A stretch of DNA of 64,000 nt from Zingiber officinale (lineage: Eukaryota > Streptophyta > Magnoliopsida > Zingiberales > Zingiberaceae), in NCBI RefSeq assembly GCF_018446385.1, contig NC_055992.1, positions 101,760,947 through 101,824,946 on the forward strand, written 5' to 3'. The notes beneath the pieces are model-generated. The model did no database searches. It saw only the letters and a list, made by a program, of their open reading frames with translations, and had not been told where the DNA came from. Positions 1,255 through 64,000 of this stretch are shown piece by piece. The translations under genes were made by a program, and so were the position numbers. Each line of letters opens with the position of its first letter. The stretch's first letter is position 1.

Positions 1255-1395
1255 AAATGTAAGGCTCTTCTTGGTGTCCAAGAAGGGGGTCGGACCATTG
1301 CTTGGTGACCAAGCAATGGCCGGCCACATCCTCTTATAGGGGCCGGCACCCTATAGCTTGGTGACCAAGCTTGTAAGGGCCGACCAACATTAATT
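1255..1395. repeat. Hairpin cluster in U3 of family A
   Basis: Three close inverted repeats share the core CTTGG-TGN-CCAAG. They are TTCTTGG-TGT-CCAAGAA, CATTGCTTGG-TGA-CCAAGCAATG and AGCTTGG-TGA-CCAAGCT. GGCCGGCC or GGGCCGGC words lie between them. A fourth example, TTGCTTGG-TGT-CCAAGCAA flanked by GGCCGGCC, lies at 1,787-1,830. The loops are three bases. Confidence 0.8.
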
Positions 1396-1986
1396 CAAAT
1401 AGGAGGGTTGTTTTAAAATTTTAAAATCTTCTTTTTGTAGAAAACTATATGTTTTAAAAGAGAGATTTTAATTTTTAAAACTTTCCTTATTTGAATTAAG
1501 CCACATGTTTAAATAGAGAGTTTAAAAGATTTTAAAACTTTCCTTTTTTAACCATCCTCATGGTTTAAGAAAAAAAGGGAAAAGAAGTTTTAAAATTTAA
1601 ATTTTCTATCACCATGTTAAAAAAAAAAATTTTATAAGAGAAGTTTTAAATTTTAAAACATGATTTTAATTTTTAGAACTTTCCTTTTTTAACTCTTACT
1701 TTAGGAAAGAGAGCTTGTAAAGTTTTATAAGAGTTTTCTTCTTGTAAAATTTTATAAAAATTATTATTTTTCTTTCCTAAATATGGTGGCCGGCCACCTT
1801 GCTTGGTGTCCAAGCAAGGGGCCGGCCAATCCCAATCCTAAACCAAATAGGATTGATCTCAACCATTGATTGGTGATTGATTCAATCAAGATGAAAGAAA
1901 AGGAAAAATAAAAAGGGAAAAGGAAAAACTCTTGGATGATTTTATTTTTTGTAAAAAGTTTTTCCTTATTTGCTTTGGGCAAGTAA

Positions 1987-1994
1987 TATAAAAG
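1987..1994 (+). promoter_or_regulatory. Putative LTR TATA box (family A)
   Basis: TATAAAAG occurs at the matching place in all three family A LTRs (1,987; 42,378; 59,313), each time followed by a purine run and a TC-rich leader. The position is consistent with a U3/R boundary shortly downstream. Transcription itself is inferred. Confidence 0.6.
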
Positions 1995-2771
1995 AAGGGG
2001 TGAGGGGGCTTCATGAGAGACAACTCTTATTCTTTTGCTTGGGTGATCTCTTGGTGGCCGGGCCTCTCCCTTCTTCCTCTCCCTTTGCCCTCTTCTCCTT
2101 GGTGGTGGTGGTGGCCGGATTTTAGAAGAAGAAGGAGGAAGCTTTTGGGTGGTGTTCATCTTGGAGGATCGTCGCCCACACGACATCCAAGGCGAGGCGA
2201 GGAATATGACAGAAGATCTCGAGGTCATTAGCTTACAAAGAGAATGTATAACTAGTAGTTTTCTTCCACATCATACTAGTTATTTTTCTTTGTATGAATT
2301 CTAAATACAAGAGACAATTAGATCCAGTTTATCGAATTTATTTTTCGATTTTGTGTTTTCTTCTTTTTCGAATTTGTGATTTGATTGTTCTTTTTGGTTA
2401 ATCTAAAGTTATTTAAGGAAATAAATATTAGCTTTTCTTAAAAGGCTTTGCCTAGGCGGTGGTGGTTGCTCCCATATCCAAGAAGGCCATGTGCCTCGCC
2501 ATGCAGTCCTGGAAGCCAATTTTGGAAATTAATATTTATGGAATTAATAGTTTAGGTAGATTTGAATCAATAGTGTTAAGTTCCGCTTGCGATTCAAATC
2601 TAAACCATTAAGAGCAGATAAGTTAAATTTGGAATCAATGATGTTAATTTCCGTCTGTGATTCCTGATTTAACATCTAAAGAACACAATAGGTTATTTAA
2701 GGAAAAGTTTGACACTTGTACAAAAATTTTTGTACAGTGGAACCGGTACGTTTTCCTAGGATTAACCAACA

Positions 2772-3778: not shown

Positions 3779-5170
3779 TTATCTAGTGATATCCATATCA
3801 TCCATAAAATTCCTCATTCTTTCCTGGTTAACTTCATAGTCCTGAACGAACCCTGTCACCTGACTATAGAAGTCCCTAGTAAACTGAAAATGATCCTGTA
3901 CCTCCCTAAACTGGTCGTCAAATAACTTAAAGCGACCCTCCAACAATCGTTGTTGGATTTTTTGCTTCTCATGAAGGGAGTCTAAAGAGGCATGGAAGTC
4001 AGAAAAATCAAATCTAGAGGGTCCCGTACCATAGGCAAAAGAGTGCCTAGGAGGTTTCGGATATCCGAAAGGGTGCGGCAATCCTGATGACGAGGTCTCT
4101 TGGTGGTACTCGGTTTCTTCTATAATGGAGGGAATAGTCTCGAGGTGTAAATCAGTAATCAGCCAGTTCGCGGGATTGCGAATTGAAGTGCGCTTGGGGC
4201 AAGGAAGGGGTAATGGAAAACCATTGTTCCTAGGGAAGACAAACCCATTCTCATCCCGACAAATCATCTTCATTGCATGACAAGAATCAATGTCGATTTT
4301 GTCATTTCCATGAATGACCTCTAATCGATCAAGCTCACAACTCAGATTGAATGCTATTTGGGTGATCAATCCACCAAACACTATCATCCCGGAAGATGCT
4401 TTAACTGCTCTCAATAAATTCTGTAAGAAATGAAATTCGGAATCAAAATCCACCTTATTCAACATCGCCCAAAGAGAATATAGCTCTACCTTTCTAACCA
4501 CTGCATCACTCTCTCCTCGACCAAAGATCGTTTTGCTCATCACTCGGTGAAGGTATCTAAAGGTCGAGTTTTTCATGCGAGATGCCTTAGCTCTAGAAGG
4601 TTCGTAAGGATCCTTTGATCTGGTTATTGACGTCCAAAATTCATTCCATATAATCTCATCATCAAATCCATGGGTACCACCAATGGGTAAACCAAAATAA
4701 TTATTAAAATCACTAAAAATCCACCGAACTTCTTTATTCATCATCCTAAAAGTTATGACCCCTACATAGTCATCCTCAGATGAAAATTTAACATCAATCG
4801 AGGTCAAAAATTCAAGGACTAGGCGGGGGTAAGTTGATGCATGAGCGTACATAATATCATTCCAATCTAAAGAACTAATCATCCAATCTACATCATCCCT
4901 TATTCCTAGCATATCCATAGTAATAGGATCCATATATTTAGTGCATATAATTTTTCTAGCGACAAGGATATCATATCTAGCTTTTTGTTCATAATTTCTA
5001 AAAGTAATATTGAACTCATTTTCGTTACTTTTGTCGCGTGCCACTCTTTTTCCTTTCCCTTTTGAAGAAGACGTCTTCCCTTTGCCTTTGTCGCTTCTCG
5101 GTGCATCTCCTTTGCCAAATCCACTGCTTCCTCGATGAAGTCTCTTCAAGATCTGTAACATGGTGTGCAA
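3779..5170 (-). CDS. Athila-type ORF1 / 'plant transposon protein', 463 codons
   Basis: This is the longest uninterrupted frame in the window. It has a basic Lys/Gly/Ser-rich N-terminus, then a globular region with DMLGIRDDVDWMISSLDWND, LVLEFLTSIDV, ITFRMMNKEVRWIFSDFNN and YFGLPIGG. That order is typical of the extra ORF of Athila-lineage Ty3/gypsy elements. The C-terminus is charged and Gln-rich with likely coiled-coil character. Translation may begin at the first Met or at MLQILKR three codons later. After the TAA the same frame stays open for about 39 codons (…PPPPY) to a TGA near 3,661, so the native protein may have been longer. The function is unknown; envelope-like and structural roles have been proposed for such ORFs. 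No RT or integrase lies between this ORF and the protease at 6 kb. Confidence 0.8.
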   Translation of the reverse strand: MHTMLQILKRLHRGSSGFGKGDAPRSDKGKGKTSSSKGKGKRVARDKSNENEFNITFRNYEQKARYDILVARKIICTKYMDPITMDMLGIRDDVDWMISSLDWNDIMYAHASTYPRLVLEFLTSIDVKFSSEDDYVGVITFRMMNKEVRWIFSDFNNYFGLPIGGTHGFDDEIIWNEFWTSITRSKDPYEPSRAKASRMKNSTFRYLHRVMSKTIFGRGESDAVVRKVELYSLWAMLNKVDFDSEFHFLQNLLRAVKASSGMIVFGGLITQIAFNLSCELDRLEVIHGNDKIDIDSCHAMKMICRDENGFVFPRNNGFPLPLPCPKRTSIRNPANWLITDLHLETIPSIIEETEYHQETSSSGLPHPFGYPKPPRHSFAYGTGPSRFDFSDFHASLDSLHEKQKIQQRLLEGRFKLFDDQFREVQDHFQFTRDFYSQVTGFVQDYEVNQERMRNFMDDMDITR

Positions 5171-5441
5171 GGTTTTGAGGAATTTCTTATGGAGATGGGT
5201 CTTGAGGATGGGAGAGGAGGAGAAGGAAGGAAAATAGGGAAGTTGCTTCTCTCTTTCTGGATTTGTGGCTTGAAGAAGTGTTAGATCTAGATGTAGATCT
5301 AAGCAAAAATGAACTCTAGAGGTGGGAATTAGGATTTGATGAGGTGTAGTGGGGAGGAGAAGGCTTTTTGGGAGAGAAGGAGATGAAAATTAGGGCTTTT
5401 GGAGGAGTAGGCGGTGCACACGAGTAGGGGTACAATTGTGT

Positions 5442-5447
5442 CTTATA
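5442..5447 (-). promoter_or_regulatory. Putative TATA element upstream of ORF1
   Basis: On the minus strand TATAAG follows directly after the palindrome array (5,770 down to 5,455). A pyrimidine-rich leader of about 270 bp then leads into ORF1. The layout (array, TATA, leader) copies that of the Athila LTR at 14.3 kb, so this looks like a U3 promoter feeding ORF1. Confidence 0.5.
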
Positions 5448-5454
5448 GACACGG

Positions 5455-5770
5455 TCGGGTTAGGTGGGGTTCTGCACGGTCATGCCAATTGGTACGACCT
5501 CCTCTTTTCTTCCTTCGGCCAAAGTCGTACGGTCGTGCCATTTGGCACGACCCATTCCTCCTTCTTCTCTACATAGGTCGCACGACCGTGCCAATTGGCA
5601 CGACCTGAGTCTTCTTCATCTCTGGCGATCTTGCATGGCCGTGCCAATTGGCACGACCCATGTTCTCCTCTTCTCTGCATAGGCCACATGGTCGTGCAAG
5701 GTTGCACGACCCGTGGCCTTTGTCCCTCTGTCTGCTTCGCACGACCGTGTGGGGTCACACGCCGACTCCT
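5455..5770. repeat. Palindrome array, word GGTCGTGCC/GGCACGACC (family B)
   Basis: Repeated inverted pairs occur here. GGTCGTGCCA-TT-TGGCACGACC has a perfect 10-bp stem at 5,531-5,552. CGTGCCAATTGGCACG is a perfect 16-bp palindrome at 5,587-5,602, and a similar one lies near 5,640-5,656. Unrelated 20-40 bp spacers separate them. The same word recurs at 14.3-14.64 kb. Confidence 0.9.
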
Positions 5771-7211: not shown

Positions 7212-8492
7212 TGTTGGTGCGGGAAGCATCCGACGATCGAATCTAAGTTTTGATAATGGCAAAGGATTCAAAGTTAAGATGTGTGGTGATCTAACGGTCT
7301 GAATGAGATTGCAGGAAAGTCCTAAGTGTACTTAGGCAAAATCCCTAACTGTGGTTAGGCAAGGTAAAAACCTTAGGGGATGGTAATCCTAGGTCATAGG
7401 GGGTGGTAACCCTATGCGGAAAGTCTTGGTGGGTCGAGTGCTTCAAGCAAAAGTCATAGGGGGGGTAACCCTAGGTGGAAAGTCCTGGTGTCGCGAACCA
7501 GGTGAAAGACTGGACCAGCCGGGAAGTGGAAGTCTAGCAGAAAGTCCGGAAGCATCAAGCACCGAGCAAAAGTCCAGTCGATCTGGAGGATCACACTGAC
7601 ATCAGGTAAATCTCTTGAGTGGAGTAGGTGAGGACGCGTTCCCCGTAGAGGGAATAGTAGGCGTCGGGTCGACCTAGAGTTTCCGGTTGGAAATCCAAAG
7701 TCAAACCCAGACAGTCCAGAGACTGTCATTATATTCTGTTATCATATTTACTATTGTTTTGTGCTAACTTTGTCTTGTAGGGTAAGTGTTTGGGACTAAC
7801 ACTTTTGCAGGACCAAAGGAGCACAAGTTAACCTCGGATGAACAGTGTCCGAGGCGCCTCCATGGAGCTTGGAGGTGTCTCGGGTGCAAGCCGAAGCCAG
7901 CTGTCCAGAGGGGTTGGAGGCACCTTGAAGGAATCTCAAGGCGCCTTGGACTGGAGGCTGAAGGCACCTTGGAGATCAGTGAAGGCGCCTTCAAGTGATA
8001 AGGTTCGACCAGTTCAGCTCTTATCTCCGCGGCTGATTCGGCTCACTCAAGGCGCCTTGGATGGGCTTTAAGGCGCCTTGAGCATGCTATAAAAGAAGGT
8101 CACGAGCAGCTCTTCAAAATATCAATCTTTTAGAGCTCTTTCTCCTGTGCGCTGCTTACGTGATGACCTCAACGTGCTGTTTCAAGATCCCGACGACCCA
8201 GAGCGCCATTTCTTTAGATTCTGTCATTCGGTATATTTTTCTTATTGCACTAAATTGTATTAAGCGTGTAATATTTTCGATCTTATAGTTGTTGCCCACC
8301 GAAAGCAGTCAACGACCGCGTGCCTTCGAGTAGGAGTTGAGATAGGCTCCGAACGAAGTAAATCCTCGTGTTCATTCTGCGTACTTGTTGCTTTTCTTTT
8401 CCGCTGCATATTTTAACTCCGATAGTTTTACGAATCGAATGAAATAGCCGCGAGTGCTATTCACCTCCCCTCTAGCGCGTCTCGATCCAACA
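7212..8492 (+). mobile_element. 5' LTR of element C
   Basis: It has the same length as the 3' LTR. Differences from the 3' copy are scattered, mostly C/T and G/A transitions (about a dozen in the first 250 bp by eye). TATAAAA lies at 8,088-8,094, directly after the palindrome array. The expected tRNA-Met primer site is missing after the terminal CCAACA. Confidence 0.92.
7846..8080. repeat. Palindrome array, words GAGGCGCCTC and AAGGCGCCTT
   Basis: There are eight to nine occurrences of the 6-bp palindrome GGCGCC core or one-base decayed forms (for example GGTGTC, GGCACC). They are extended to 10-bp palindromes by flanking GA/TC or AA/TT and spaced 10-40 bp. The array ends 8 bp before the TATA box. 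Confidence 0.9.
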
Positions 8493-10599: not shown

Positions 10600-11880
10600 T
10601 GTTGGTGCGGGAAGCATTCGACGATCGAACCTAAGTTTTGATAATGACAAAGGATTCAAAGTTAAGATGTGTGGTGATCTAACAGTCTGAATGAGATTGT
10701 AGGAAAGTCCTAAGTGTACTTAGGCAAAAGCTCTAACTGTGGTTAGGCAAGGTAAAAACCCTAGGGGATGGTAACCCTAGGTCATAGGGGGTGGTAACCC
10801 TATGTGGACAGTCTTGGTGGGTCGAGTGCTTCAGGCAAAAGCCTAGGGGGGGGTAACCCTAGGTGGAAAGTCCTGGTGTCGCGAATCAGATGAAAGACTG
10901 GACCAGCCGGGAAGCGGAAGTCCAGCAGAAAGTCCGGAAGCATCGAGCACCGAGCAAAAGTCCAATCGATCTGGAGGATCGCACTGGCATCAAGTAAATC
11001 TCCTGAGTGGAGTAGGTGAGGACGCATTCTCCGTAGAGGGAATAGTAGGCGTCGGGTTGACCTAAGGTTTCCGGTTGGAAATCCGAAGTCAAACCCGGAT
11101 AGTCCGGAGACTGTCATTATATTCTGTTATCATATTTACTGTTGTTTTGTGCTAACTTTGTCTTGCAGGGTAAGTGTTTGGGACTAACACTTTTGCAGGA
11201 CCAAAGGAGCACAAGTTAACCTCGGATGAACAGTGTCCGAGGCGCCTCCATAGAGCTTGGAGGCGCCTCGGGTGCAAGCCGAAGCCAGCTGTCTAGAGGG
11301 GTTGGAGGCGCCTTGAAGGAAGCTCAAGGTGCTTTGGACTGGAGGCTGAAGGCGCCTTGGAGATCAGTGAAGGCGCCTTCAAGTGATAAGGTTCGACCAG
11401 TTCAGCTCTTATCTCCGCGGCTGATTCGACTCACTCAAGGCGCCTTGGATGGGCTTTAAGGCGCCTTGAGCATGCTATAAAAGAAGGTCACAAGCAGCTC
11501 TTCAAAATATCAATCTTTTAGAGCTCTTTCTCCTGTGCGCTGCTTACATGACGACCTCAACGTGTTGTTTCAAGATCCCGACGACCCAGAGTGCCATTTC
11601 TTTAGATTCTGTTGTTCGATATATTTTTCTTATTGCACTAAATTGTATTAAGCTTGTAATATTTTCGATCTTATAGTTGTTGCCCACCGAAAGCGGTTAA
11701 CGACCACGGGCTTTCGAGTAGGAGTCGAGATAGGCTCCGAACGAAATAAATCCTCGTGTTCATTCTGCGTATTTGTTACTTTTCTTTTCCGCTGCGTGTT
11801 TTAACTCCAATAGTTTTACGAATCGAATGAAATAGCCGCGAGCGCTATTCACCCCCCCTCTAGTGCGTCTCGATCCAACA
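10600..11880 (+). mobile_element. 3' LTR of element C
   Basis: It starts TGTTGGTGCGG after the polypurine tract and ends CCAACA before the target duplication. The palindrome array is at 11,233-11,470, with perfect GAGGCGCCTC at 11,239-11,248 and 11,260-11,269. TATAAAA is at 11,476-11,482. This copy keeps more GGCGCC words intact than the 5' LTR does. Confidence 0.93.
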
Positions 11881-13324: not shown

Positions 13325-14286
13325 AAAACTTGTTACGATTCTGCAAGTGCACGAATTCGTCGTCACTAATAAAGATTATCAACCCCACAAGGACTGGTTA
13401 TAAGCACTAGCGATAGCTCACTTAGGATTAGCTAAACTACCGATGGTTGTAAGTTATCTACAGAAAAGAGGGTTGGAAACGGAAATGAGAACTGGCAAAG
13501 AAAAAGTAATAGACATTGTTTATGAAGAGTCCTAGGAGTTCAGTTTTATTGTGGTGGCATTGATGTATCACATTTTATCCTTTACTCATTTCCCATCAAC
13601 ATGCATTCGTCGGAAGCTGAAGTATCTATTCTTAGGTACCAAATAAAGAAGATCCTTATGAAATCCTGTTACGGTTAACCCCTGTCACTAGGGTGTCTCG
13701 GTAGATCACAAGAACACTACTCTAATTGATGTCACTAAGGATAGAGATAAGGAGCTTAGTTTGGTCTCTTACTTCCTTGTGGAGGAGTTGTCTCTCCTTT
13801 CAAGGGAGTACCCTAGATGTCTATGAACGGGTTATCCCTGTCACTAGGGCCCCTCGGGCATACGATCTAGGATATTCTCTCTACGAGATAGGCAATTCCT
13901 ATATAATCAATTAACACGATATAAAGATCGAGTAGTCGAAACAAAGTAAGCGAAATCATCCAATGAAATGAGGCAAAAGTATGAGTCTTACATCAAACCA
14001 ATCCACAACTACTCCCTCATCCTAGAACAAGGAATCTACTCCATAGACGCTGGAGAAAAACCCGAAGACATAATGTTAAGCATACAATTCTCAAACAAGA
14101 AGAGAGAAACAGAAAAGACGCTTATCCAACGACGACGAATGATCTTTGGATCCAATCCTTTGCTTCTGGAATTGATGTGGTGATGAAGTGTTGCTGGACG
14201 GAGGTCTTGGATAGCGTGGAACGACACCAAATCGATTCTACGGCTCGCTTCCTGGCTCTCCCCCCTTAAGGAAAAGGGTTAAAACC

Positions 14287-14294
14287 CTTTTATA
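14287..14294 (-). promoter_or_regulatory. Putative LTR TATA box (Athila LTR)
   Basis: Minus-strand TATAAAAG lies about 10 bp downstream of the end of the palindrome array (14,640 down to 14,305). Confidence 0.6.
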
Positions 14295-14304
14295 GGCTAG
14301 GGCG

Positions 14305-14640
14305 CGGCTGCGGCGGTACGGCTGTGTAAGGATGGCACGGTCGTGTCATTTCTTGTCTTTGGCTGCACTGCATGGTCGTGCAAATTGGCACGACTGTGTG
14401 AGCTTCGAGTCCGGTTCCTTGGGCATGACCGTGCAGGGTTGCATAACCGTTCCTTGCTTGGCTTCGGTCGTGGGGGGCACGACCGTGCAAGTATGCACGA
14501 CCATGCTCTGATCTGCCTCTGGGTTGGCCGCACGGTCGTGCAAGAGTTGCACGACCGTGCACTTCTCCTCTCCTGTTTGGCCATACGGTCATGCGAGGTT
14601 GCACGACTGTGTTCTTTGGCTCGTTTCGGTGCGTCGACAA
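14305..14640. repeat. Palindrome array, word CACGGTCGTGC/GCACGACCGTG (family B)
   Basis: At least seven occurrences of the word or its complement occur, many in convergent pairs such as GCACGGTCGTGC-(7 nt)-GCACGACCGTGC near 14,530-14,560. The word is shared with 5,455-5,770, but the intervening text differs. Confidence 0.9.
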
Positions 14641-14938
14641 TCGCTGTTTTTGCTCTGAAAGTTATCCCTGTCAACACAAAATCAAACAAAGAGCAGATAT
14701 CCGAATAAAATAGTATATATGATGAGTTCATGATAAAAGAGGCGATCATGCAAAGAATATATACGTATAAAGCAAGTGAATGTGCGTTAAAACATGCATA
14801 AACGATCATAATATTTACGCACATCACCTGCAACTACAGAGTTAATCTATTTTGCATATTCTACTATTATCTTGCCTAAATTATATATGAACAGTGCATA
14901 ATTTAACCGAAAACCAATCATACAAAACCAAAAAACTC

Positions 14939-14950
14939 GCTCTGATACCA
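14939..14950 (-). other. Copia primer binding site (tRNA-iMet type)
   Basis: On the minus strand TGGTATCAGAGC follows two bases after the LTR end at 14,953. It marks the 5' LTR of a minus-strand copia element whose internal coding region is not recognisable to the left. Confidence 0.85.
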
Positions 14951-15202: not shown

Positions 15203-16207
15203 TGTTGGAACCCCAAGGTTGTTTTGGTATGATCAACAAGTTAAGTTAGGTCCTGTGTGTTTTTAACCTTGTGTCTAAGTGTGCAGGAGCTTAGGAGCAC
15301 AAGTAGTCGAGCGGAAGAAGCAGCTAGCGAGAAGGATGGCACGCGGTGTGTCCGAGGGGCGGGGCGCCGCGGAAGAGTACACCGGTGGACGAGAAGGAAG
15401 TGTTCGATGGTTCCGAGGGACGAGAAGCCGGAGCGGAAGACGGCTCAGGGAGCAAGAGGTGCAGCTAGCGAGAAGGTCGACATAGGGTGCGACTAAGGAA
15501 CGAAGACTGCGGATGAGTACGCTGGCGGGCAAGAGAGGAATGAGAAGCCAGAGCGGAAGCCTGCTCGAGAAGACAAGAAGTTAGGTTCTGGTGAGCCCTA
15601 TTCCGGATGGAAGAAATCACCCAAGCAAGCGGAGCCGGAGAGGAAGACCCGGACCGAGGCGAGCAGCACCGGAGCAGAAGGGCCGGACCAGAAAGTCAAC
15701 TTGGTTGACTTAGTGGTCCGAGCGCTCAGATCCATTCCGGGCTCTCGAACAGTCCGGGCACCCAGAAGTGGATTTTTGACCAGATCGCGTCAAGCGCGAT
15801 CTGTCTCATTGGGGATAAAATTTTATCCCCCCAGGGCGTCCGGAACCCCTTCGGGATGCCCCGACCCAGGCTATAAATACAACCTTGGTCCAGAAGCTTT
15901 TTAACAACTCAAGAATTGTAATTCTAACACTTGTGTGCTTCTTTTAGAGTTTAGCTTCTTTCTTTTTGCGCTTTCATCATTGTAAGAGTCTTCTTCGCCT
16001 GAAGGAGATACTAGTGCGACACCTTCCTTGGATTAACAACCTCTCCGGTTGTAACCAAATAAATCCCTATGTGCCTCTTCTTTTCTGTTTTAATTTACTA
16101 CTGTTATATTTTGCAAGTGTTAGTTTAAGAAAAGTTGAGAAGGATTTCTTGTTATTATTTTTGCAGACTATTCAACCCCCCTTCTAGCCGGCCGCCGCAG
16201 TCCAACA
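15203..16207 (+). mobile_element. 5' LTR of element D
   Basis: TGTTGGAACCCC…AGTCCAACA. Its U3 ends in an array of CG-rich inverted repeats, including AGATCGCG-TCAAG-CGCGATCT and the perfect 20-bp palindrome GGGGATAAAATTTTATCCCC at 15,811-15,830. TATAAATA follows at 15,872-15,879. Confidence 0.92.
15705..15866. repeat. Palindrome and inverted-repeat array in element D U3
   Basis: The words GAGCGCTC, GGGCNCCC, GATCGCG…CGCGATC, GGGGATAAAATTTTATCCCC and CCCC-TTCGG-GATGCCCC are packed into 160 bp and end 6 bp before TATAAATA. The 3' LTR has the matching array at 20,895-21,081 (GGGCGCCCGG, GAGCGCTC, GGGGCGCCCC) before TATAAATA at 21,088. Confidence 0.85.
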
Positions 16208-20674: not shown

Positions 20675-20749
20675 GGCCCTGCTGGGTTCAACTGGTTACT
20701 AACATTATCCGTAAACCATAGGTCTCGGGTTCAATCCCCGCTTAGGCCG
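20675..20749 (+). other. tRNA-like segment inside family E LTR
   Basis: The 75-nt segment holds a T-arm-like hairpin CGGG-TTCAATC-CCCG, which is also a Pol III B-box match. It has an A-box-like GGTTCAACTGGTT 5' of this and a partial acceptor pairing GGCC/GGCC at the ends. The anticodon arm is not convincing. It is most likely a tRNA-derived relic captured by the LTR, not a working tRNA. Confidence 0.35.
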
Positions 20750-48822: not shown

Positions 48823-49550
48823 TGTAAATACCCCGAATTAGTTTTGATATGGTCAACCAAGTTAAGTTAGGTTATTTTGTGTTTAATTCTTGTGTCTAAG
48901 TGTATAGGAGCTTAGGAATATAAGAAGTCGAGTGGAAGATCCAACTAGAGAGAAGGATGACACAGGAAGGGAGTCGACAGACTCGGTGCATCCGAGAGAC
49001 AAGGTACTACGGAAGAGTACGCTAGCGGAAGATAAGGAAGCGAGCAACATTTTCGAGGGATGAGAAGCGGAAGTGGAAGACTTCTCGAGAAGAAGATTGG
49101 AGTTAGGTTCATGTGATCTAAATTCCAGCTAACCGGAGCATCACCCATGTGAAGAGAATCAGCTTGGAGTCTAATCTGCTTCATGGAAGGTGCCTCCAAG
49201 AGGCTTGGAGGTGCCCTCGCACTTTAAGGAGAAGGCACCTCCAAGAGGCTTAGAGGCACCCTTGCACCTTCTAGTGGAAGGTGCCTCTAACAATGTTGGA
49301 GGTAGCCTAGACTGAGCAAACAATAGCCATTAGGCTACTATTGTGAAGAAGATAAAACTCTATCCTCTTGGAGGCGCCCTAGAACTCTTTAGAGGTGCCT
49401 CCGAGCAATGACTATGTTGGTGCAATCGACCTCCAAGGTTTTAATGTCAGACAAATATATTTAAGTATGTTTAAGTATGTTTAAGTATGGAGCTTGATCT
49501 AGGGAAGTCCTAGTTATAGGATAGGCAAGGGAAGTCCTAGTTGGAGGGTA

Positions 49551-49708
49551 GCAAGGGAAATCTCAGTATATCGTGGAAGCTAGGTGGATAGGTCTGGAGG
49601 ACCTGATCCCTGAGTAGCCGAATACTGAGGCAAGGGAAATATCGGTATATCGTGGAAGCCAGTTGGATAGGTTTGGAGGACATGATCCCTAGGTAGCCGA
49701 ATATTGAG
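49551..49708. repeat. 79-bp tandem duplication in LTR G
   Basis: Units 49,551-49,629 and 49,630-49,708 both start GCAAGGGAAAT and end GAATA(C/T)TGAG, with a few substitutions. Confidence 0.93.
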
Positions 49709-50189
49709 TCTTGGTGAGTGAAGCTAGGTGGAGAAAACCCTAGGGGGTGGTAACCCTAGGTAACGAGAAGTCTTGGAGGAGTGGACTCCAAGCAAGGTTG
49801 ATCGGATGGTTTTCGGTCGACCAGCGGATCTCGATAAATCTAGGTTTAAGTTTACCATTGTATTATGCATTATTATTGTTGTTGGCTAATATAGTATTAC
49901 AAGAAAGGTCTTAGTGGATCAGGCGATCAAACATTGAGTAAGCAAAGTCCAAACATGTCTGGAGGATTATGTTTGGCAGGTAGGTTGAGGTAAACAACTG
50001 AAGGAGTGACAGTGAGGTCGGATTCCCGAAGGGAACAACCTTCGGTCACCGGGAATGTTTCAAAGTTGAGATCAAGACAGTTCTACTATCTTTTATATTA
50101 CTCATGCATTAATAATATTATTACTATGCTAACATCTATTTTGCAGGATTCTTTTCTGTCTAACACTATGTTGTAGGTCTGGCTGGATT

Positions 50190-50617
50190 GGTCGACCGAA
50201 CCGGAGGATCGGTCGACCGAACAAGAAGAAATCAAGGAAGTGTTCAGATCAGATCAGAACAGACCGAGTCCGATCAAGCCATGATTAGTCGACCGAACAG
50301 TAAGATCGATCGACCGAACAATGATGACTCAGCACAGACAGCAACGATCATGAGCAGAAGGAAACTACATTGATCGGTCGACCGAACCGGATGATCGGTC
50401 GACCGAACTATCAATATTAAATGCACAGTAAATGCGAATTTCAGCAAATCTCGACGAACAGGGAATGAGCCTGTTCGATCAACCGAATAAGGGGATCGGT
50501 CGACTGAACCCTTAATGGATAGTTAATGTCAAAGATCGAATCAGCAATCAGATCATAGCCAGGAAGGAAGAGAGCTGGTTCGGTTGACCAAACACAGGGA
50601 TCGGTCGACCGAACATC
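50190..50617. repeat. CGGTCGACCG palindrome array (LTR G)
   Basis: About ten occurrences of GGTCGACCGAA or near variants occur, several in pairs such as GGTCGACCGAACCGGAGGAT followed by CGGTCGACCGAAC. TCGGTCGACCGA is a perfect 12-bp palindrome at 50,209-50,220. The array ends 9 bp before the TATA box. Confidence 0.92.
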
Positions 50618-51258
50618 GCCGATCTTATAAATTGAAGTTCAAGGTCTGAGGCTGGAAAGGGTAATCTGTTGTGGTTCAATTCTATGCTAATGCTGCTCGT
50701 GCAACTGCTCTACAATTCCTCTACACGCAAACAAGTGCCGACCAAGCTTCAACTCTTACATACAGTCGGTATACTTTATTATTTTTGTATTGCACTTAAT
50801 CTTATATAAGATAGTAGGTTGTTACTATCTTATATCATTGTATTTTGTACGCATTACTTCTTTCCGAGGTTTTTGGAAAAAAGAATCTTAGTGGATTGTC
50901 CATTGGTGCGGTCAAGGACCGTGGGTCTTCGAGTAGGAGTCGACCTAGACTCTGAACGAATTTCTATCGCACCCATTCGATCTATCAGACTATATTTTTC
51001 CAGGAGCTATAAAAGGACCCCTAGAGCTAAGAATTCAATAGAACTCTAACAACAACTCTTGTAATCATGTTCCTAATCTTTTCTAAGCTTTCAAAGTGTG
51101 TAAGAGGCTTCTTCACCTTCAACAAAGAAGAATTTTAGTACGCTTTATCTATGTGTATTTTATGTTTCATAATTATCATAAATATTTATCTATCTATGTT
51201 CTTGGCTTTAATCATGAACTTGTGATGTTTTCTATCTTCTAATTCAATGCAATCAATA

Positions 51259-54200
51259 ATGGCTAATATTAACAACATCCCTACACTTACCTGATCAAAC
51301 TTTGCCCAGCGGAAGGAATACATTATCATAGTTTTGAGTTGTATGGACTTAAACTATGCATTGAGGCACGATTATCTTGTACTCCTGACTAGCACTAGTG
51401 AGCATAGGTTTGAATTTGAAAAGTGAGAGAGATCAAATCACATGAGTCTGAGCATCATGAAGCCTTTAATTATAGAACTAATTAAGGGCTCCATAATTGA
51501 AGGAGAGGATGATCAGACTTTCCTAAAGCAACTATCAAACCCTTTCACCTCAAATGAAAAGGTTGAGATAACTACAATATTATCAAAGCTTGTCTCAATA
51601 TGGTATAATGGAAATGAAAGCATTAGAAAGTACATCAAGGAGATGTCCAATCTCACCATAAGACTAAAGGCACTAAAACTCGAGATGTCTAAGAGTATGT
51701 TAATACATTTTATCTTAATATTTCTACTTGCATAGTTCACCTTTTTAATATTTGTATAATATTCAAATAGAATAGGGGACATAAATAAGCTTATTACTTA
51801 ATGTATGCTAGAGGAGGAGAGATCGAGGGGTGAGACATTTGAAAGTGCTCACCTAGCATTCACTTCTCAAGGTTCGAGTAAAAAAAAAAGAAAAATGACC
51901 AATATTAAGGATAAAGATAAGAAAATTACAAATTCTATGGTTTATGTTCATAAGGAGCAAAAGAAATAAAATAAGAAATTCATTTGTTTTTTTGGCAAGA
52001 AGAAAGATTATATAAAGGAAGACTGTTCGAAATATGCCAATTGGCTAAGAAAGTAAACTTCCTAACTTTATTAGTTCGAAAGTTAACTTAACTATTGTGC
52101 CTACTGGTACTCACATACTTGCCACTATGCAAGATGATCTCAAGAGCCGATTGTCGCTTGATGATAAAAGATACATGCATCTATATTAAAAATGACAAAA
52201 AGGTGTAGTTTCAATAGGTGTTTTTAGACTTTATTTAGGAACTGACATTTTTTTGGATTTCGATAATACTTTTGTTGTACTGTCTTTTAGATGGAACTTA
52301 ATTTCCATTTCTTATTTTGATAAATCAGTTATTTTTGTTCATTTTTCATTGAATTTTTAATATTTTCTTAAATTCAGTATTGATTGGCAATGGTTCTTTG
52401 ATTGATAATCTATATAGATTAAACACCTTAACGCCTATTGACAATGAAATTATAAATAACATAGGTACGAAAAACAATATGACTTATGAGAATTGTTATG
52501 ACATAGGTGTTTAGAAACAACGTATAGATAGGTTGATTCTTGATTCCTTTGATATGTCAAACTTTGATGTTTGTATAGAGTGTGTCAAGGGAAAAATGAC
52601 TAACAAAAGAAATAATGGTGTGGGTTGATGTAGTGAAATCTTAGAACTAATACATATAGATATATGTCAATCGTTCCCTAAGGCATCTTAGAATGAACAC
52701 ACATATTTATTAGTTTCATAGATAACTATTTGTTATATGATTATTTATACCTTATTCATGAAGTCTCAATATTTAGACATGTTTAAAATTTTCAAAGCTA
52801 AAATTGAAAATCAACTAGATAAGAAAATTAAAGTTGTTAGATCCAATCATGGTAGTAAATACTATAGTCGATATGACAGATTAGGTGAACAACATCATGA
52901 ATCTTTTGTAAATTATCTTGCTGATTATGGGATTGTTCCTTAGTAAATCATGTCTAACACTCCTAATCAAAATGTATATCTAAATGACAAACCAGACCCT
53001 AAAAGATATGGTAAGAAGTATAATGACCTTTTTCCTCCACTAGAGTTTTTGTGGTGTGAGACACTCATAATTGTATTATATCTACTTAATAAAGTACCTA
53101 TTAAGGCTGTGTCTAAAATCTTATACAAGATGTGGACCGGTAAAAAGTCTAGTAATAGACATTTATAATGCAAGGAAATTGAACTCAAGGGCTATCAACT
53201 TCAATTTTATAAGTTACTCTGAAAATTCTAGGTGCTATAAATTTTATGAACCCTCAAATAAATCTTGTTTTGATACAAAAATATTAAATTTATTCAGGAT
53301 AGTGGAAGTATTAAGGTTAGGGACATATCTTTTGAGTACAACATTAGAGATACTCTTATGGTTACTGCTAGTGCAATGAGTAATGGTATGATACTTATAC
53401 TCTACATTATGGATATTGCATATCTAGGAGAAGTATTAAATCAAGTTATTCTCGTGTCATTTTCAATACAATTGGAGGGACATTCCACTGAAATTGAGGT
53501 ATTTCTTCATATGGATGAGTAAGTACCTCAACCACAAGTGTCATTAAGATGATTCACTAGGGAGAGGAAATCCATGATTTTTATGATTATGTTTATCTCC
53601 AAGGACATGAGTTTGACATAGGATTGAAAAGTGATCCTATATCTTTCTAAGAAATCAAACAATACTCTAATCCCAAGAGATGGATTGAAGCCATGAAAGA
53701 AAAGTTGAAGTTTATAACAGATAGTGATGTTTGAAAACTTATCGAATTACTTGAAGGTATGACATCCATTGGTTGTAAATGGATATTTAAAATCAAACGG
53801 GATTCAAAAGGTAGCATCGAGAAGTATAAGACTCACTTGTTGCAAAGGGATTTACTCAGAAAGAGGACATTAATTATAATAAGACTTTCTCACTTATTTC
53901 AATGAAAAATTCTCTTAGGGTAATCATGATACTTGTAACTTATTTTAATTTAAAGCTACATCAAATAGACCTAAAGACAACATTCCTCAATGGTTGAATT
54001 TCTTAATTGTGATATTGAAAAGAATATATATAAGGTACAATCAAAGAACTCTGAATCTAAGGACCCAAAACAACTAATATGTAAATTTAAAAAGTTAATT
54101 TATGATATCCCATCAATGGTATCAGAAATTTGATCAACTAGTTACTTCATTTCGTTTTAAATAGAATCCTGTTGATCAATATATATATGTCAAGTTCACT

Positions 54201-56925: not shown

Positions 56926-57034
56926 TGTTGGTGCGGTTAGCACTAATGGCCTAACTCAGGTTTTGATAAATGACAAAGTAGATTAAGTTAGGTTTATTGT
57001 GATCTAATACTTTAACTGAATGTCCAAGAGAAAT

Positions 57035-57240
57035 TAAGTTAGGTCAATGGGACGACCAGATAACTGGTGCGAAGTTCAGATAGGTCAACAGGCTGACCGA
57101 ATATCTGGCACGAAGCCCAGCTAGGTCGACAGGCAACCAGATAGCTGGCATAAAGCGTAACTTGGTCGACGGGCTGACCGGATAGCTGGCACGAAGTCCA
57201 GACAGGTCGACGGGTTGACTAGATGTTAGGCAGGTAAGTT
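57035..57240. repeat. 43-45 bp tandem repeat in LTR I
   Basis: Four to five copies of a unit containing AGGTCGAC(A/G)GGCTGACC and ATAGCTGGCACGAAG occur, diverged by indels. Confidence 0.88.
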
Positions 57241-57476
57241 AAGGTAAGTCACTGTAGGGGAGTGACTTGGTGAGGACATATTCCCAGTCAATTCAACTTA
57301 GAACAATTTCAGAAATCTAAGTTGAGATCGTGACTAAATTCTGGTCTCAGAAAGACAGAATCTAATTACTACTCTGTTTGAATATAATTGTGTTAACACT
57401 TTGTTTTGCAGGGTAGTATAACTTTTATTTTGTCTCGGACTAATATTTTCTTGCAGGAAAACGAGTTTTTGGAAAA

Positions 57477-57720
57477 TTGTGGTCTAGGCACCCGGAAGGG
57501 ATCCGAGCGCCTAGAGTTGATCCAGGCGTCCAGAAGGGATCTGAGCGCCCGGAGTTGGTCCGAGCGCCCAGAACTAGTTCGAGTGCCCGGAGTTGGTTCG
57601 GGCACCCAGAACTGGTCCTGGCGATCGGAAGGCAAATCTTATCTCGACAGCTTGGAGCAGGCCGATTGGTTGGCCAACGTCACGGTCTAGGGGCCCGGAA
57701 GGGATCCGGGCACCCGGAGC
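57477..57720. repeat. CG-rich GCGCCCGG-type array in LTR I
   Basis: About nine repeats of CGAGCGCCCGGAG, GGGCACCCGGA and related words occur with GATCC interspersed. Symmetry is weaker than in the other families, but the array ends 6 bp before the TATA box, the same position. Confidence 0.8.
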
Positions 57721-57811
57721 ACTCCTATAAAAGGAGTCTTCCACCAGAGCTTCGAATAACTTCTTCTACGACTGCTCTATTGCGCTCTGCTCCTACGACG
57801 CTGCAAGGCTT

Positions 57812-60210
57812 TGTTAGAGTGTATACTGAAAGCCTAAGCTTTTGTAAACATTTATTTTGAATAAAGAATCACATTTGGTTAAATTATCTACATTTGTTTG
57901 TAGTTGTTCAATTAATTTATATTGTAGATAACATAGTATGTGGTGTCATATACAGAAGATAATGTTATCAGTACCTTATAAATTATAAACAGTAGCTCAC
58001 GACCAAAATGGAAAGGAACAAACCATTGGAAGGTCGTAGTGTAATTAGGTATTAGTTTATCTTAACTATATAATTACACTAGTACACTTAGAGTGTATTG
58101 AGTAGGACCATCAGAGGTCATTTCTTTTATACTGACTTTATAAAGGAACAAAGATCTCAGTTATTATGGAAGTGTGTGCTCTTAATCCTAATATAATAAC
58201 AAGCACATATATTTGATATTTATTTCTTTAATTTATCAATGAGTGAGATTTAGTTTGATAAATCAATAAGCCCGATAAGTTGGGAAATGATATCACTTAT
58301 AGTGTGTGTTGTTGATTATAGAAGGAAACTATGTCCTAGTGATCTAGGTTGATAATGTCCCCAAGAAGAGCTCATAAGGATTGTCATGTTAAACCCTGCA
58401 GGTGGACTTAGTCCGACATAACGATAAAGTTGAGTGGTACTATTCTTGGACTAAGATATTAATTAAATGAGTTGTCAGTAACTCACTTAATTAGTGGACA
58501 TCTTAAACACAGGGAGATTAACAAACTCATAATAAGAAGGAGCCCAAAAATATAATTTGGGATTGGTGCGGTAGTTCAATAATAGTTCTTTAGTGGAATG
58601 AATTATTATTGATAAAATTAAGTTGTGTGTTCGGGGCGAACATGGGATGCTTAATTTGATCGGGAGACCAAGACCAATTCCTCCTCTCGGTCCCTATCGT
58701 AGCCTCTTATTTATAGAGTACTATACCCACCTATACCCACCTTCATACCCATGTTGTAGGGGTCGGTCAAGCTAACTTGAGGATCAAGCTAGGGCCGGCC
58801 AAGCCTTGGTCCATGGGTGGCCGGCCCTAGCTTGAACCTAAGCTTAGGTGGCCGGCCCTATTAAAATTAAAAAAGAATTTTAATTTTAAAATTTTCTTAT
58901 GTGAAAGATATAATTTATTGGAGAGATTAAAAATTAAAATATCTCTTTTATAATGTTCTACAAAAGATTAAAGAAAGAGATTAAATCTCTTTCCTTATTT
59001 GTAGATTGGAAAGATATTTTATTTTTCTTCTTTGTAAATTATTCACATGTTGAAAAATTAAAATTATAGAAATTTCTTTTTATCAACCATGAAGGGATTT
59101 TAAAGGGAAATTTTATTTTTTAAAATTTCCGAAGACAAATAAGGAATTTTTAATTGTTGATTGAAAATTGCCTTGTTTGCTCTCCATGAGGTGGCCGGCC
59201 ATGACATGTTTAATTAAGAAATTTTATTTTATTTTTCTTAATTAATTCATGTCAAGGAAAGTTAAGGAAATTTTATTGTAATTAAATTTCCTTATTTGCC
59301 AAAGCTAAGGATTATAAAAGAGGGGGTTTTGGAAGCCTTCAAGGTGAACAACCTCTATTATTTTCTCCCTCTTTTCTTCCTTGGTGTGGCCGGCTATTCC
59401 CTTTCTCTTCTTTCCATCCTTGTGGCCGAAACTCTCTTCTCTCTTGGAGATAAAGGTGTGGCCAGATTCTAGCTTGGAGAAGAAGGAGAGAAAGCTTGCA
59501 TCCTTGGAGCATTGGTGGTGGTTTCTCTTCATCCTTGGAGGTGCTCTTGATTTGGCCGAACCTTGCAAGGAGGAGAAGAAGGTGATTTGGTGGTTTCTCA
59601 TCTCGGAAGATCGTTGCCCACACAACGTCTGAGGTTAGAAGAGGAATACGGTAGAAGACCTAATGGTTTTTACTTGCAAAAGAAAAGGTATACTAGTATT
59701 TAATTTCCGGATCATACTAGTTTTATTTCTTTGTAAAAATACCAAATACAAGAGGCATGCGATTCTAGTATTTCGAATTTGTTTTCGATGTTGTGTTCTT
59801 TTATTTTTCTTTTTCCTTGTGATTTGATTGTTCTTTTTGGTTGACCTAAAGTTATTTAAGGAGATTAAATATTAGCTTTCCTTAAAAGGTTTTGTCTAGG
59901 CGGTGGTGGTTGTTCCCATATCCAAGAAGGCCATGTGCCTCACCATGCAGTCCTGGAAGCCAATTTTGGAAATTAATATTTAATGGAATTAATAACCTAG
60001 GTGATTTGGATCGAACGTGTTAAGTTCCGCAGGAGATCCAAGTCTAAACCTAAAAGAACAAATAAATTAAACTTTGGATCAAACGTGTTAAGTTCCGCAG
60101 GCGATCCAAGTTTAATTTAAAAGAACACATGGTAGCTAGGAAAAGGTTCAGACCTTTGTACAAAATTTTTGTATAGTGGAACCATTAGGTTTTCCGAGTA
60201 GCAACCAACA
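57812..60210 (+). mobile_element. Solo LTR of family A (copy 3), TSD GGCTT
   Basis: TGTTAGAGTGTATACTGAAA…CAACCAACA, 2,399 bp, is flanked by GGCTT at 57,807-57,811 and 60,211-60,215. It is inserted just downstream of the TATA box of LTR I. TATAAAAG is at 59,313-59,320. U3 carries GGCCGGCC words and CTTAGG/CCTAAG-like hairpins at 58,750-58,865. Confidence 0.95.
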
Positions 60211-60500
60211 GGCTTCTCCGACAACCTACGACTCATTTCCTTTTTCTTGTTGTTGGTATTAGTTTAATAATTCCTGTACTTATTTTGTAATCATTTTTGT
60301 GAATTATTAGTGATTTCCCAACGAAAGCACTCGACGAGTGCGGGCCTTGGAGTAGGAGTCGACAAAGGCTCCGAACCAAGTAAAATTGGTTGTGTTAGCG
60401 TTGCCCTTTCTTTCCTTATTTACCTGCATACTCGAATTGATTTTCAAATTCTCGACGATCGCTATTCACCCCTCTCTAGCGAACTCTACGATCTAACAAG

Positions 60501-60512: not shown

Positions 60513-60771
60513 AGGTACCGCTCTGATTTGATGCAACCACCAATTAGACAAAGGGGGTGAAACCTTTATTTTATTTTCTTTCAGTTTTCAATTTTTTCGA
60601 TATATTCTAAATTGGTACATTACCTCTTTGGAATTTTTTTCATAGCAATTCAAACTGAACTGGTGCAACACCAATTTAGTCTTATATTTTTTACTTTTTC
60701 TCCCACACTGCTAAATCCAAGACCAAGTCTTGGGATCCTCTTCTTTGTTTTTTTGTGTGTGTACAAGAATT

Positions 60772-62380
60772 ATGGTCCAAATCGAGGGATTCAACACCGT
60801 CCATCCTCCCCTGTTCAACGGTGACGACTTCCCATATTGGAAGAAGTGAATGGAGGTCTATCTAAAGACCGACTTCGACCAGTGGTTCAGCGTCACCAGA
60901 GGATACAAGATTCCTATCGACAACTCCAGAAATCCGTTGGACCCTAAATAGTGGAATCCAGAGATGAAGAAGAAAGCCCAAATGGACTTCAAAGCCCACA
61001 TGAAAATGCGAAAGAATTGTGGGACAAACTCATCGAACTGCACGAAGGAGCCAACGATACTAAGGTAACCAAACGTGATCTTTATTTAAATAAATTATTT
61101 AATATAAAAATACAGGAAGAAGAATCGGCGAGTCAACTCCACGCGAGGATAAGGGATATCCTCAACGGGCTTCATACCATCGACCACAAAATGGAGAACC
61201 ACGATTTAATAAGGTACACCCTGAACGCATTTCCTCGAAATGCATTGTGGGCATCCATCGTGGATGCCTACAAGATTTTGAAAATTTTTTCAAAATTAAA
61301 ATTAGACGAATTATTTTGTGAACTTGAGCTACATGAACAAACTAACTCCAGAACTAAGAAAGGTGTTGCTCTTTTTGCAGGTTCCTCCAAAGAAAAGTCA
61401 AGAACCAAGCCTAAATCTGAAGGTGAGTCTGACTAAGATTCAGAAGACGAAGAACACCCGGTGAACTTAGTAAGGAAAATGTTCACCAGGAGAAAGAAGA
61501 ACTTCAGCAGAAATGGCCTACAGAAGATCAACTCCACCACCGAACCAAGAAATGTGACCTGCTTCGGATGCAACAAGAAGGGTCACTACAAGAACGAGTG
61601 CCCAAAATTGAAGAACGATAAGTCAAAGACAACCAAGAAGAAGGTACTCAAAGCAACGTGGGACGAATCATCTTCAGAGGAATCAGAAGACAAAGAGCAG
61701 AGGCACCAAAGCCACCTCGCGCTGATGACCCGCGAATCAGAAGATGAATCAGAAGACGAGTCCGAACCCGAATTAAGCCACAAGTCTGCACTTGTTTCTG
61801 AAGGTTCCAAGGAGGTATACTTTAGTTTAAATAAAAAGTTTTTTAAACTTATTGCTTGCCTAGAAAATTAGCTGCAACTGAAAATCAAAATAAAATGCTT
61901 CTTGAGGAAAACCAACACCTCAAGGAACAAATTACAAAATCTAATCCAAATCAAGTTGTAAAAATTGAGGAGGAAAATTCAACACTAAAAGTTGAAATAA
62001 ACAAACTTAAAGGGTTATTAGAAAATTTTACAACCAGATCTAAAAACTTGGACTTAATTCTAAAAAGTCAAAATGGTATATACAACAAATTTGGTTTTGG
62101 ATACAAGTCCAGTTCAACAAATATATTATTTGTATCACTCGTAACCCAAAACTAAAATCAAATTAAAGCTTGGGTTCCAAAAGCGTGCTTAACCACGAAG
62201 TAGGAATCAATCAATACTATATACTTAAAAAAATATATTATGTAAAATCAAATAACCTAAATCAAAAGCCAAAATATAAACCTAAATCAACTAAACTAAA
62301 ACCAAACCATAGAAATAACCATAAAACCAACTTAAATCAAGATTATAATCAAGTATATTATAATTATAAAAGTAACTGAC
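60772..62380 (+). pseudogene. Copia gag of element I (frameshifted)
   Basis: The start MVQIEGFNTVHPPLFNGDDF and YWKK*MEVYLKTDFDQW are the copia gag N-terminus, with two early stops (about 60,847 and 60,948) and a short deletion. The 161-codon frame 60,951-61,436 carries KELWDKLIELHEGANDTK and RIRDILNGLHTIDHKM. Next comes the zinc knuckle CFGCNKKGHYKNEC (61,558-61,599) in a basic context, then an acidic Ser/Glu region and a coiled-coil-like segment (ENQHLKEQITKSN, EINKLKGLLENF). No protease follows before the family E copy at 62,666. Confidence 0.87.
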
Positions 62381-62665
62381 ATAAACTCAAAACTAAAACC
62401 TAAATTAGATCATTAATTCAGGGGGAGGCTTCAGAATAGCTGGCACCTCTAAAAATAATCTACCTAGTAGGGTAATTAGGATTAGTTTAAAAAGGTAAAG
62501 TTTAACTTGACCTACGGTACTGGTGAAGTTTTGGATGATAGTAGGTTAGGGAAACTCTGTCTATGGATGTCTAAGAAGATATGACTTCGACCTGATGCAT
62601 TTGGCTGAGTAGAACTAACTGAAGCAACCCCTTACAGATCCTAACTAGTTAGATCAAGGTTTTGT

Positions 62666-64000
62666 TGTAGCGACCCGCCTCCTACTAGCTAGGCTGCGAA
62701 GCTGATTGCTACATTATGCTGTGCTGGACTATTAATGCGGAATGAAAACTGGATTTATTAAAATTTTACTGAACTAAATGTTGTAAAGTTTAACTTAGTG
62801 TTCTGGGTGTACCTAGGAATTGTACACATGCTAGGGGAGGTGTTTACAACTGATAATGAACTTCGGATCGATCCACAGACCGATCTACTAATACTGGCAC
62901 GGTAGGAAACTCTGGATCGTTCAACCGACCGATCCATAAACTACGCTGCAATCCTGTACGCTGCTGGATCGGTCTGCCGACCGATCCAGCGGGTCCCTGA
63001 TCGGTCAATGAGACCGATCAGTGGCTTACTGATCGGTCTGCTGACCGATTAGTGAGCCATTTTTTGCGACCCAGCTCCTGATCGATCAGGGAACGAACAG
63101 AAGCTTCTGTTCGTAGAACCCAGGTCCCTGATCGGTCTACCGACCGATCAGAGACTCCCTGATCGGTCTGCTGACCGATCAGGGGTTTCTGATTTCGTAT
63201 AGGCCCCTGATATCAGCACTGATGCGTGCCAAGGTCATTACACAACACTATAAAAGCTAAGAGAAACATTCTACTAGGTAATGGCTAACATACTAAACAT
63301 GATTAAGGCATAGAATACTAATTCATGGCATGTAAACATATGGAAATCAAAACTAACAAGGTTTTAAACTGTTCTCTTGCTAACTAACAGAAACATAAGA
63401 TAACGCTTGCTATAAGTACTAATGCATACTGAACATGTTCTAATGCATAATAAAATAAAACTAGATCCCTAGGGTCTTTGTTCCAGTTCCTTCCACACAC
63501 ATCTTGATCTGCATTGACCTCCAGCCTTCACTGCTAGTCCATTTTCCTTTTACCTGTATCTGCAGTATAAGAAAAATAGTATCTGTAAGCTAAAAAGCTT
63601 AGTAAGAAACCATCTACCTCACTAAAACATGCATATGATGCAAATATGATTTTAAATCATGCTGTTTGAAAGGATATGCTAAGTATACTGAATAAACTAA
63701 ACATGGCATGACATATAAGCATACAATCATGGCATATCTAAAGCTGAACATGATATCAATCACATGGTATCAATGAAGAACTAAGCTGATACTAAAAACT
63801 GAGCTAAGCTAATACTGAGCTACTGCTAGGACTGTACTGAATTCACGAACTAATTTGTGAAAGGTTGAAAACCATATACATATAGTAAGTAAAATACTAA
63901 ACATGCTGCTGATGGGCCCTGACAACTGTACTTGCTGTGCGCGCATCCCTAACTAGACCCGGGATTGCAAGTTTCGAATCTAGTAGGGTTTACTAGGTTA
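62666..64000 (+). mobile_element. Family E LTR, copy 2 (runs off the window)
   Basis: TGTAGCGACCCGCC aligns with the start of copy 1 at 18,418. Shared blocks continue, for example CTGCTAGTCCATTTTCC, CTTAGTAAGAAACC, GTGCGCGCATCCCTAACT and TAGTAGGGTTTACTAGGTTA. The last block matches 19,770-19,789 of copy 1, so about half of the LTR is present. Confidence 0.88.
62870..63190. repeat. GATCGGTC…GACCGATC hairpin array (family E copy 2)
   Basis: About seven inverted pairs occur, for example CTGATCGGTC-TACC-GACCGATCAG at 63,128-63,151 (10-bp perfect stem). It occupies the same place in the LTR as the GATCGATC array of copy 1, but the word is different and still self-complementary as a pair. Confidence 0.93.

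Follow-up and report, generated by a model that had tools for sequence, protein, structure and literature searches.

The long terminal repeats (LTRs) of the nested retrotransposons in a 64-kb stretch of the Zingiber officinale genome (contig NC_055992.1, positions 101,760,947 to 101,824,946; 40 % GC), referred to here as the window, carry arrays of short palindromes (dyads). Their symmetry exceeds that expected by chance, and in pooled LTRs they are enriched upstream of the TATA box and end there. The arrays have turned over within groups of related LTRs, and an array related to that of one LTR stands before an open reading frame (ORF). The palindrome arrays are real, and the core of the feature has already been described for Sireviruses; an extension to gypsy lineages is likely. 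We hold it to be marginally probable that the arrays are promoter-proximal cis-regulatory modules resembling the RM boxes of Sireviruses, namely rows of dyad sites through which dimeric host factors would activate the LTR promoter at its TATA box. All inferences were drawn from this one window and from published papers. The LTR families are designated A to I, with copies numbered where there are several, and their positions are listed in Table 1.

An unselected scan of the whole window for exact dyads (arm ≥9, loop ≤14) found 64, compared with a mean of 7.8 and a maximum of 15 in 30 block-wise dinucleotide shuffles, and the words listed in the original prediction were recovered by exact search. 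When the GC content of the arm was set at ≥0.4, 35 dyads remained (shuffle mean 1.9, maximum 6). By our placement, 31 of these belong to arrays or TATA boxes: 29 are in LTRs and two in the B-type array outside the LTR. The remaining four are at 23329, 31868, 45480 and 46657. The scan counts each copy of a family separately; 13 of the 31 come from E1 and E2, whereas no dyad comes from H, I, A2 or A4. Outside the LTRs and the internal B-type array, the excess in dyad coverage is mild (0.042 versus 0.025 in 10 shuffles). All windows of 300 bp with at least four dyads lie on the arrays of B, C, D, E, F and G, except for one just past the F array, and none was found in H, I or A.

Eighteen segments, picked after the original prediction had been read, were also compared with 500 shuffles each, using dyad number as the statistic. 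As shuffling also destroys tandem repetition, repeated units are not independent in these comparisons. Ten segments were strong, with their count reached in at most one shuffle (A1 array 1, B, B internal, both C, D 3′ LTR, E1, E2, F left and G), and six were weaker, namely A1 array 2 (count reached in 8 shuffles), A2 (25), D 5′ LTR (31), F right (134), H (28) and I (10). The A4 and A3 segments contained no dyads. Contrary to the original prediction that all families carry palindrome arrays, copy A3 has a 20-bp tandem repeat instead. CpG richness was rejected as a marker of the arrays, as 88 of 510 windows reach an observed/expected ratio of ≥0.6 with GC ≥0.5, many of them outside arrays, and the median ratio is 0.69. 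A search of Rfam at E 0.5 returned eight matches, of which seven, to microRNA families and far under the cut-off, lie over the H, E1 and E2 arrays. A scan of viral contigs with the G unit returned no match.

Enrichment of dyads upstream of the TATA box relative to dinucleotide-shuffled controls, which had been proposed as a check, is seen within the window. Eight LTRs, one per family with H left out and E1 read on the minus strand, were aligned on the TATA box and compared with 40 shuffles in 100-bp bins. The three bins between -300 and the TATA box have a pooled dyad coverage of 0.24, 0.29 and 0.15, versus 0.01-0.02 after shuffling; downstream of TATA the coverage is 0.05 or less, which is inside the shuffled range. 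The last dyad is 5 bp (C), 10 bp (D), 11 bp (G) and 11 bp (I) from the TATA box. For H, a hand count by half-sites and single words that leaves out the inserted G element and one of the target duplicates gave 27 bp, and the last listed dyad is about 60 bp away. Half-sites of B, also counted by hand, end 39 bp away if only clear sites are taken and 20 bp away if weak ones are included. C, G and A1 have additional dyads 500-900 bp upstream of TATA. The original claim that the arrays end right at the TATA box therefore applies strictly to C, D, G and I (within 11 bp), which are Sirevirus-like and represent two lineages, and loosely to B and H, but not to A and F, where the arrays are far away, or to E.

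This end at TATA is not predicted if the arrays are functionless products of a mutational process, in which the reverse transcriptase switches template and leaves inverted copies in U3. Such a process would suit the row of unlike dyads in D and the dyads of A1, which have a common core and outer arms that are different yet symmetric. However, it also fails to predict one repeated word per family, the occurrence of the same word in a Vitis element and the second B-type array before an ORF, and we regard it as improbable.

At three of the 12 sites inspected (a raw count), the TATA box itself falls within or across the loop of a dyad. These are a 10-bp dyad in the D 3′ LTR and a 6-bp dyad in the internal B-type array (both in Table 1), and a 6-bp dyad in I (57721-57737). 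The insertion sites of three solo LTRs, G in H (49410-49414), A4 in I (57807-57811) and E1 in D (18413-18417), are each within about 100 bp of the array or TATA box of the host LTR. Insertion at palindromes appears in the title of PMC6911290.

The original prediction knew of no named system that covers these arrays. However, the RM boxes of Sireviruses (Bousios et al. 2010, PMC2829016) correspond in symmetry, in family-specific wording, in their place before TATA and in the clusters before env. Palindromic RM boxes were reported there in 13 of 21 Sireviruses, within CpG islands, as family-specific words in many copies that occupy the upper half of the LTR shortly before TATA, with extra clusters before env, and classic copia elements were reported to have no RMs. 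The word of family G is identical to the Vitis Sirevirus RM CGGTCGACCG (Table 3 of PMC2829016), and the E2 word resembles the Osr10 RM by eye; both fit a recognised word. Sites for dimeric factors are favoured because the pooled dyads end at TATA, because each family repeats a word, because one word is shared with Vitis and because there are two B-type arrays.

There are also differences from the RM boxes. Judged by eye, a CGG-CCG core is found within the words of G, D and I, and the pattern is also held by those of F and E2, but the words of C, H, B, A and E1 lack it. RM boxes belong to Sirevirus copia elements, whereas here the gypsy family F, the apparently gypsy family B and the non-Sirevirus copia family A have arrays too, and gypsy elements are not treated in the parts of PMC2829016 consulted. 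Relative to those parts, what is added is arrays in an apparently Athila-type gypsy element (B, in the LTR and before an ORF), a Retand gypsy element (F), E and a non-Sirevirus copia element (A). Among the matches listed, no title or abstract opening describes palindrome arrays in gypsy elements, though this is not proof of absence.

Symmetric sites in plant LTRs are known from other systems. The activator boxes BI and BII in the U3 region of Tnt1 are repeated or symmetric, with far fewer copies than the arrays here. Box I of Tnt1 is also mentioned as symmetric in PMC2829016. The heat-response elements (HRE) of ONSEN are symmetric sites in a plant LTR, and their binding by a host factor, HSFA2, has been shown (PMC3907296), which lends support to the reading as factor sites. 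In that case both factor and word are known, and the ONSEN LTR has no CG or CHG sites, whereas CpG occurs in most of the words of this window.

Families C, D, G, H and I are classed as Sirevirus or Sirevirus-like. C, D and I appear to carry Sirevirus hallmarks, and G and H were placed by LTR similarity only (G to C and I; H to D). Ahead of the C 3′ LTR there are three polypurine tracts (PPT) with the sequence AGGGGGAG (Table 1), with an AT/TG junction. D has exact copies of AGGGGGAG at 17768 and 17794 and a terminal tract, AGGAGGAG (17912), with one mismatch and AT/TG, and I has one AGGGGGAG tract at 62420, its 3′ LTR junction falling beyond the window. At the 5′ LTR junctions of D (16207) and I (60498), CA-AGTGG is followed by TATCAGAGC, the primer-binding site (PBS). 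In the C copy, the 5′ LTR is followed by other sequence and neither CA-ATTGG nor CA-AGTGG with TATCAGAGC was found, and C is called only Sirevirus-like for this reason. The LTR ends of C, D and I include, by eye, a C-rich stretch of the type of the Sirevirus integrase signal, which is located about 21 bp from the LTR end (PMC2829016).

Four families fall outside this group. B appears to be an Athila-type Ty3/gypsy element, based on an ORF of the ATHILA ORF-1 family that shares the strand of the B LTR and is linked to it by position. A protein search with this ORF (3782-5389) gave nothing at 1e-3. The array upstream of the ORF aligns with the array in the B LTR at 109 of 152 positions. Because no 3′ LTR of B showed in a self-comparison of the window, the ORF and second array are attributed to the B element from where they lie and from their strand. 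If both arrays belong to one element, the LTR-plus-env layout of Sireviruses would be present in an Athila-type gypsy element, and the second array would parallel the clusters before Sirevirus env genes (PMC2829016). It might then also act as a second promoter before the ORF. An accessory gene with its own promoter in Grande (a title cited in PMC11963269) is a further example of a gypsy element with an internal promoter, which is the arrangement proposed for B.

F is classed as a Retand Ty3/gypsy element on the basis of gag (PF03732, 45499-46080, minus strand) and an antisense ORF (PF04195, 36542-36829, plus strand, 1.6e-8); an antisense TRP28/PF04195 ORF between pol and the 3′ LTR is a Retand feature (PMC11963269). 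A TTTATAAG-type site at 36130-36139, seen by eye ahead of this antisense ORF, is a possible separate promoter. Before the A1 LTR there is a single tract of the classic type, AGTGGGAG at 316, and AGGGGGAG was not found in the 315 bases of the element present there, the only such stretch in the window. The AGTGGGAG substitution has been named as common in classic copia elements (PMC2829016). On this short stretch, A is judged to be a non-Sirevirus copia family. E is perhaps gypsy and is otherwise unplaced; from its LTR ends it may be Tekay-like, E1 being a solo LTR and E2 running off the window. The orientation of E is left open because a TATA sequence, TATAAATA, is on the minus strand in E1 and a TATA-like TATAAAAG, 64 bp beyond the array, is on the plus strand in E2.

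The nine families are not all unrelated, as had been stated. Alignments between families were scored against shuffles of single bases, which control less strictly than dinucleotide shuffles do, and were listed if z was over 5 or the score over 45. Matches on both sides of the array were found for C and I (71/99 and 215/319), C and G (27/28 and 43/53) and G and I (66/92 and 31/38), and the LTRs of D and H align at 180/253 and 33/42. By these alignments C, G and I are assigned to one LTR lineage and D and H to another, which leaves at most six lineages. Between the two groups there are only weak short matches (C-D, 20/23; I-H, 28/33).

Within each of these lineages the arrays differ despite the shared LTR flanks, but across lineages the D array resembles that of I (55/71) and the C array that of H (58/80). 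Since arrays differ within groups and resemble each other across groups, the array behaves like a cassette that changes rapidly while its flanks are conserved. D and H share 41/57 adjoining TATA, where, by eye and in three sequences, dyads are at matching places and some changes are found on both arms. The case for nine independent recruitments is therefore not supported. What does stand is that dyad symmetry upstream of core promoters recurs in copia and gypsy elements with words that differ by family, and that the pooled enrichment stops at TATA.

The D/I and C/H resemblances, neither of which is above the listing threshold in other parts of the LTRs, could also mean that a few ancestral array modules were passed between elements by recombination. 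However, unit order is not decisive, as the observed D/I score was reached in 133 of 2000 unit permutations, and common descent could not be argued from it; descent of the D and I arrays from one module is only suggested. Moreover, the arrays of A, B and F have no listed match to that of any other family, and G and E1 match at only 31/41 (single-base shuffles). We consider this origin very improbable.

The main rival explanation, that the arrays are retained or stand out as hairpins, has been put forward in print for maize Sireviruses. Once transcribed, the palindromes would fold, give rise to small RNAs and flag the LTR for silencing. In maize Sireviruses, LTR palindromes are small-RNA hotspots (PMC10760457, PMC5311732) within a fast-evolving, palindrome-rich regulatory region (Bousios et al. 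2016, via the same two papers) much like the one described here. There the palindromes were identified as targets by small-RNA data, whereas here they are known from sequence alone. In a fold scan of 457 windows of 140 bases, the four lowest z-scores overlap arrays (E1, -8.2; E2, -7.2; D, -7.1; A1, -6.1). However, low folding energy follows from any palindrome, array-free windows are also low (421-560, -5.8; 22121-22260, -5.5), and both strands fold alike, by eye, in most array windows. Imperfect pairs in the listed dyads, which were picked for complementarity, comprise 10 G-U and 17 A-C cells; this decay has no sense-strand bias, as expected for a feature of the DNA. The end of the pooled dyads at TATA also counts against hairpins. 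Covariation within arrays is weak and was rejected as proof of hairpins. There is none in F (reached by 2029 of 5000 shuffles), and in B it concerns one pair, with changes from C-G to A-T (359 of 5000 for double changes, 414 of 5000 for cells paired). Covariation in E1 (0 of 5000 on cells paired, 138 of 5000 on double changes) was not used, as the units mix two registers of one word, nor was that in E2 (2619 and 2851 of 5000), where one column is out of register and 0.79 would be paired if slid by one; a set of A units did not enter the count. Overall, the hairpin explanation is possible but rather unlikely.

In the regulatory reading, which we prefer, dimeric host DNA-binding factors would recognise the dyad-symmetric sites, and the arrays would act as enhancers that activate the TATA promoter of the LTR. 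Their turnover may come about by tandem duplication or template switching together with host silencing pressure. Several observations count against this reading. The D array is a run of several unlike dyads and not one repeated site, and arms of 10-16 bp are longer than usual factor sites. These two features and the differing symmetric outer arms of A1 leave room for effects of hairpins or template switching. The pooled bin from -400 to -300 does not exceed the shuffled controls, and single LTRs have dyad cover past TATA (0 to 100: D, 0.19 and B, 0.20; 100 to 200: G, 0.27). The last dyad is 80 bp from TATA in B, 167 bp in A1 and 231 bp in F. The lack of a detected B 3′ LTR bears on the internal array. 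All arrays had been placed in U3, but one B-type array is outside any LTR, and that of E is probably outside U3. Read from its minus-strand TATA, the E1 array is about 1.55 kb downstream and would fall in U5, and the presumed U3 has no dyads. Finally, no common binding factor for RMs was found in PMC2829016.

A broader proposal, for which our confidence is low, is that palindromic promoter arrays are a trait across copia and gypsy elements in this plant, their words coming from a common stock open to exchange, where the word changes but the dyad symmetry persists, and that gypsy elements such as B run the LTR and an internal gene with the same array. Should gypsy elements across the genome show this layout, the RM box would be no peculiarity of Sireviruses but a general promoter strategy of plant retrotransposons, and selection on the word (host factor) could be tested against selection on symmetry (hairpin, small RNA). 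The presence of several lineages in the window allows array turnover to be compared against conserved LTR flanks.

Table 1. LTRs, arrays and associated features in the window
Feature	Position	Strand	Array	TATA box	Other
A1, 3′ LTR of copia family, element extends left of window	326..2771	+	sites 1267-1371, 1785-1819	1987	AGTGGGAG-AT-TG junction 316-327
A2, LTR fragment in F	40878..43259	+	41770-41910 (weak)	42378	
A3, A-related copy, left end approximate	21430..23017	-			repeat region 21964-22043, non-palindromic 20-bp tandem repeat
A4, solo LTR	57812..60210	+	imperfect dyad from 58787 (15/16 pairs, loop 14)	59313	target duplicate GGCTT
B 5′ LTR, putative Athila-type gypsy	13331..14676	-	about 14310-14620 (~300 bp)	14294	
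B-type array outside LTR, upstream of ORF	5438..5761	-	5438-5761	TATA-like CTATAAGA	TATA-like sequence in 6-bp dyad at 5438-5452
ATHILA ORF-1 family ORF (stop to stop), downstream of B-type array	3782..5389	-			PF03078, E 8.3e-21
C 5′ LTR, Sirevirus-like copia	7212..8492	+	7849-8082	8088	
C 3′ LTR	10600..11880	+	11237-11470	11476	PPT octamers 10391, 10446, 10590
D 5′ LTR, classed as Sirevirus	15203..16207	+	about 15720-15861	15872	
D 3′ LTR, broken by E1	17922..21421	+	20890-21077	21088	TATA in loop of 10-bp dyad 21079-21106
E1, solo LTR	18418..20871	orientation unsettled	18640-19060	TATAAATA, minus strand, 20611	target duplicate CAGAA
E2, LTR cut by window end	62666..64000	orientation unsettled	62865-63190		
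F LTR copy, 3′ side	34683..35654	-	about 35170-35440	34937	
F LTR copy, 5′ side, classed as Retand-type gypsy	46779..47755	-	47269-47534	47037	
G, solo LTR inside H	49415..50987	+	50190-50614	50626	target duplicate GACTA
H LTR region, broken by G	48824..51300, right end approximate	+	49187-49402	51008	
I LTR, classed as Sirevirus, broken by A4 solo LTR	56926..60498	+	57485-57714	57726	

Outside the arrays, the first ~900 bases of the 5′ U3 of family A align in four copies (326-1255, 40878-41760 and 57812-58740 on the plus strand, and 22062-23017 on the minus strand). The fold of their consensus is -189.9, versus -95.4 (s.d. 7.2) in 12 column shuffles, and has 21 pairs changed on both sides (shuffle mean 11.1, maximum 15); in the unrestricted fold, 22 of 273 pairs are changed on both sides. 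The opposite strand gave -142.8 and 16 double-changed pairs. When G-U pairs were barred as the structure was drawn, the strands were alike (19 G-U and 15 A-C cells), and the strand of the fold is left undecided for this reason. In the B region, on the strand opposite to B, 12502-12572 (+) matches Rfam snoR71 with 40.6 bits (cut-off 40). A copia-type junction, CA-ATTGG-TATCAGAGC, at 14939-14957 (-) beside B is from an element adjoining B and D. A fragment of a terpene synthase metal-binding domain (PF03936, 4.9e-19) is at 28535-28960 (-).

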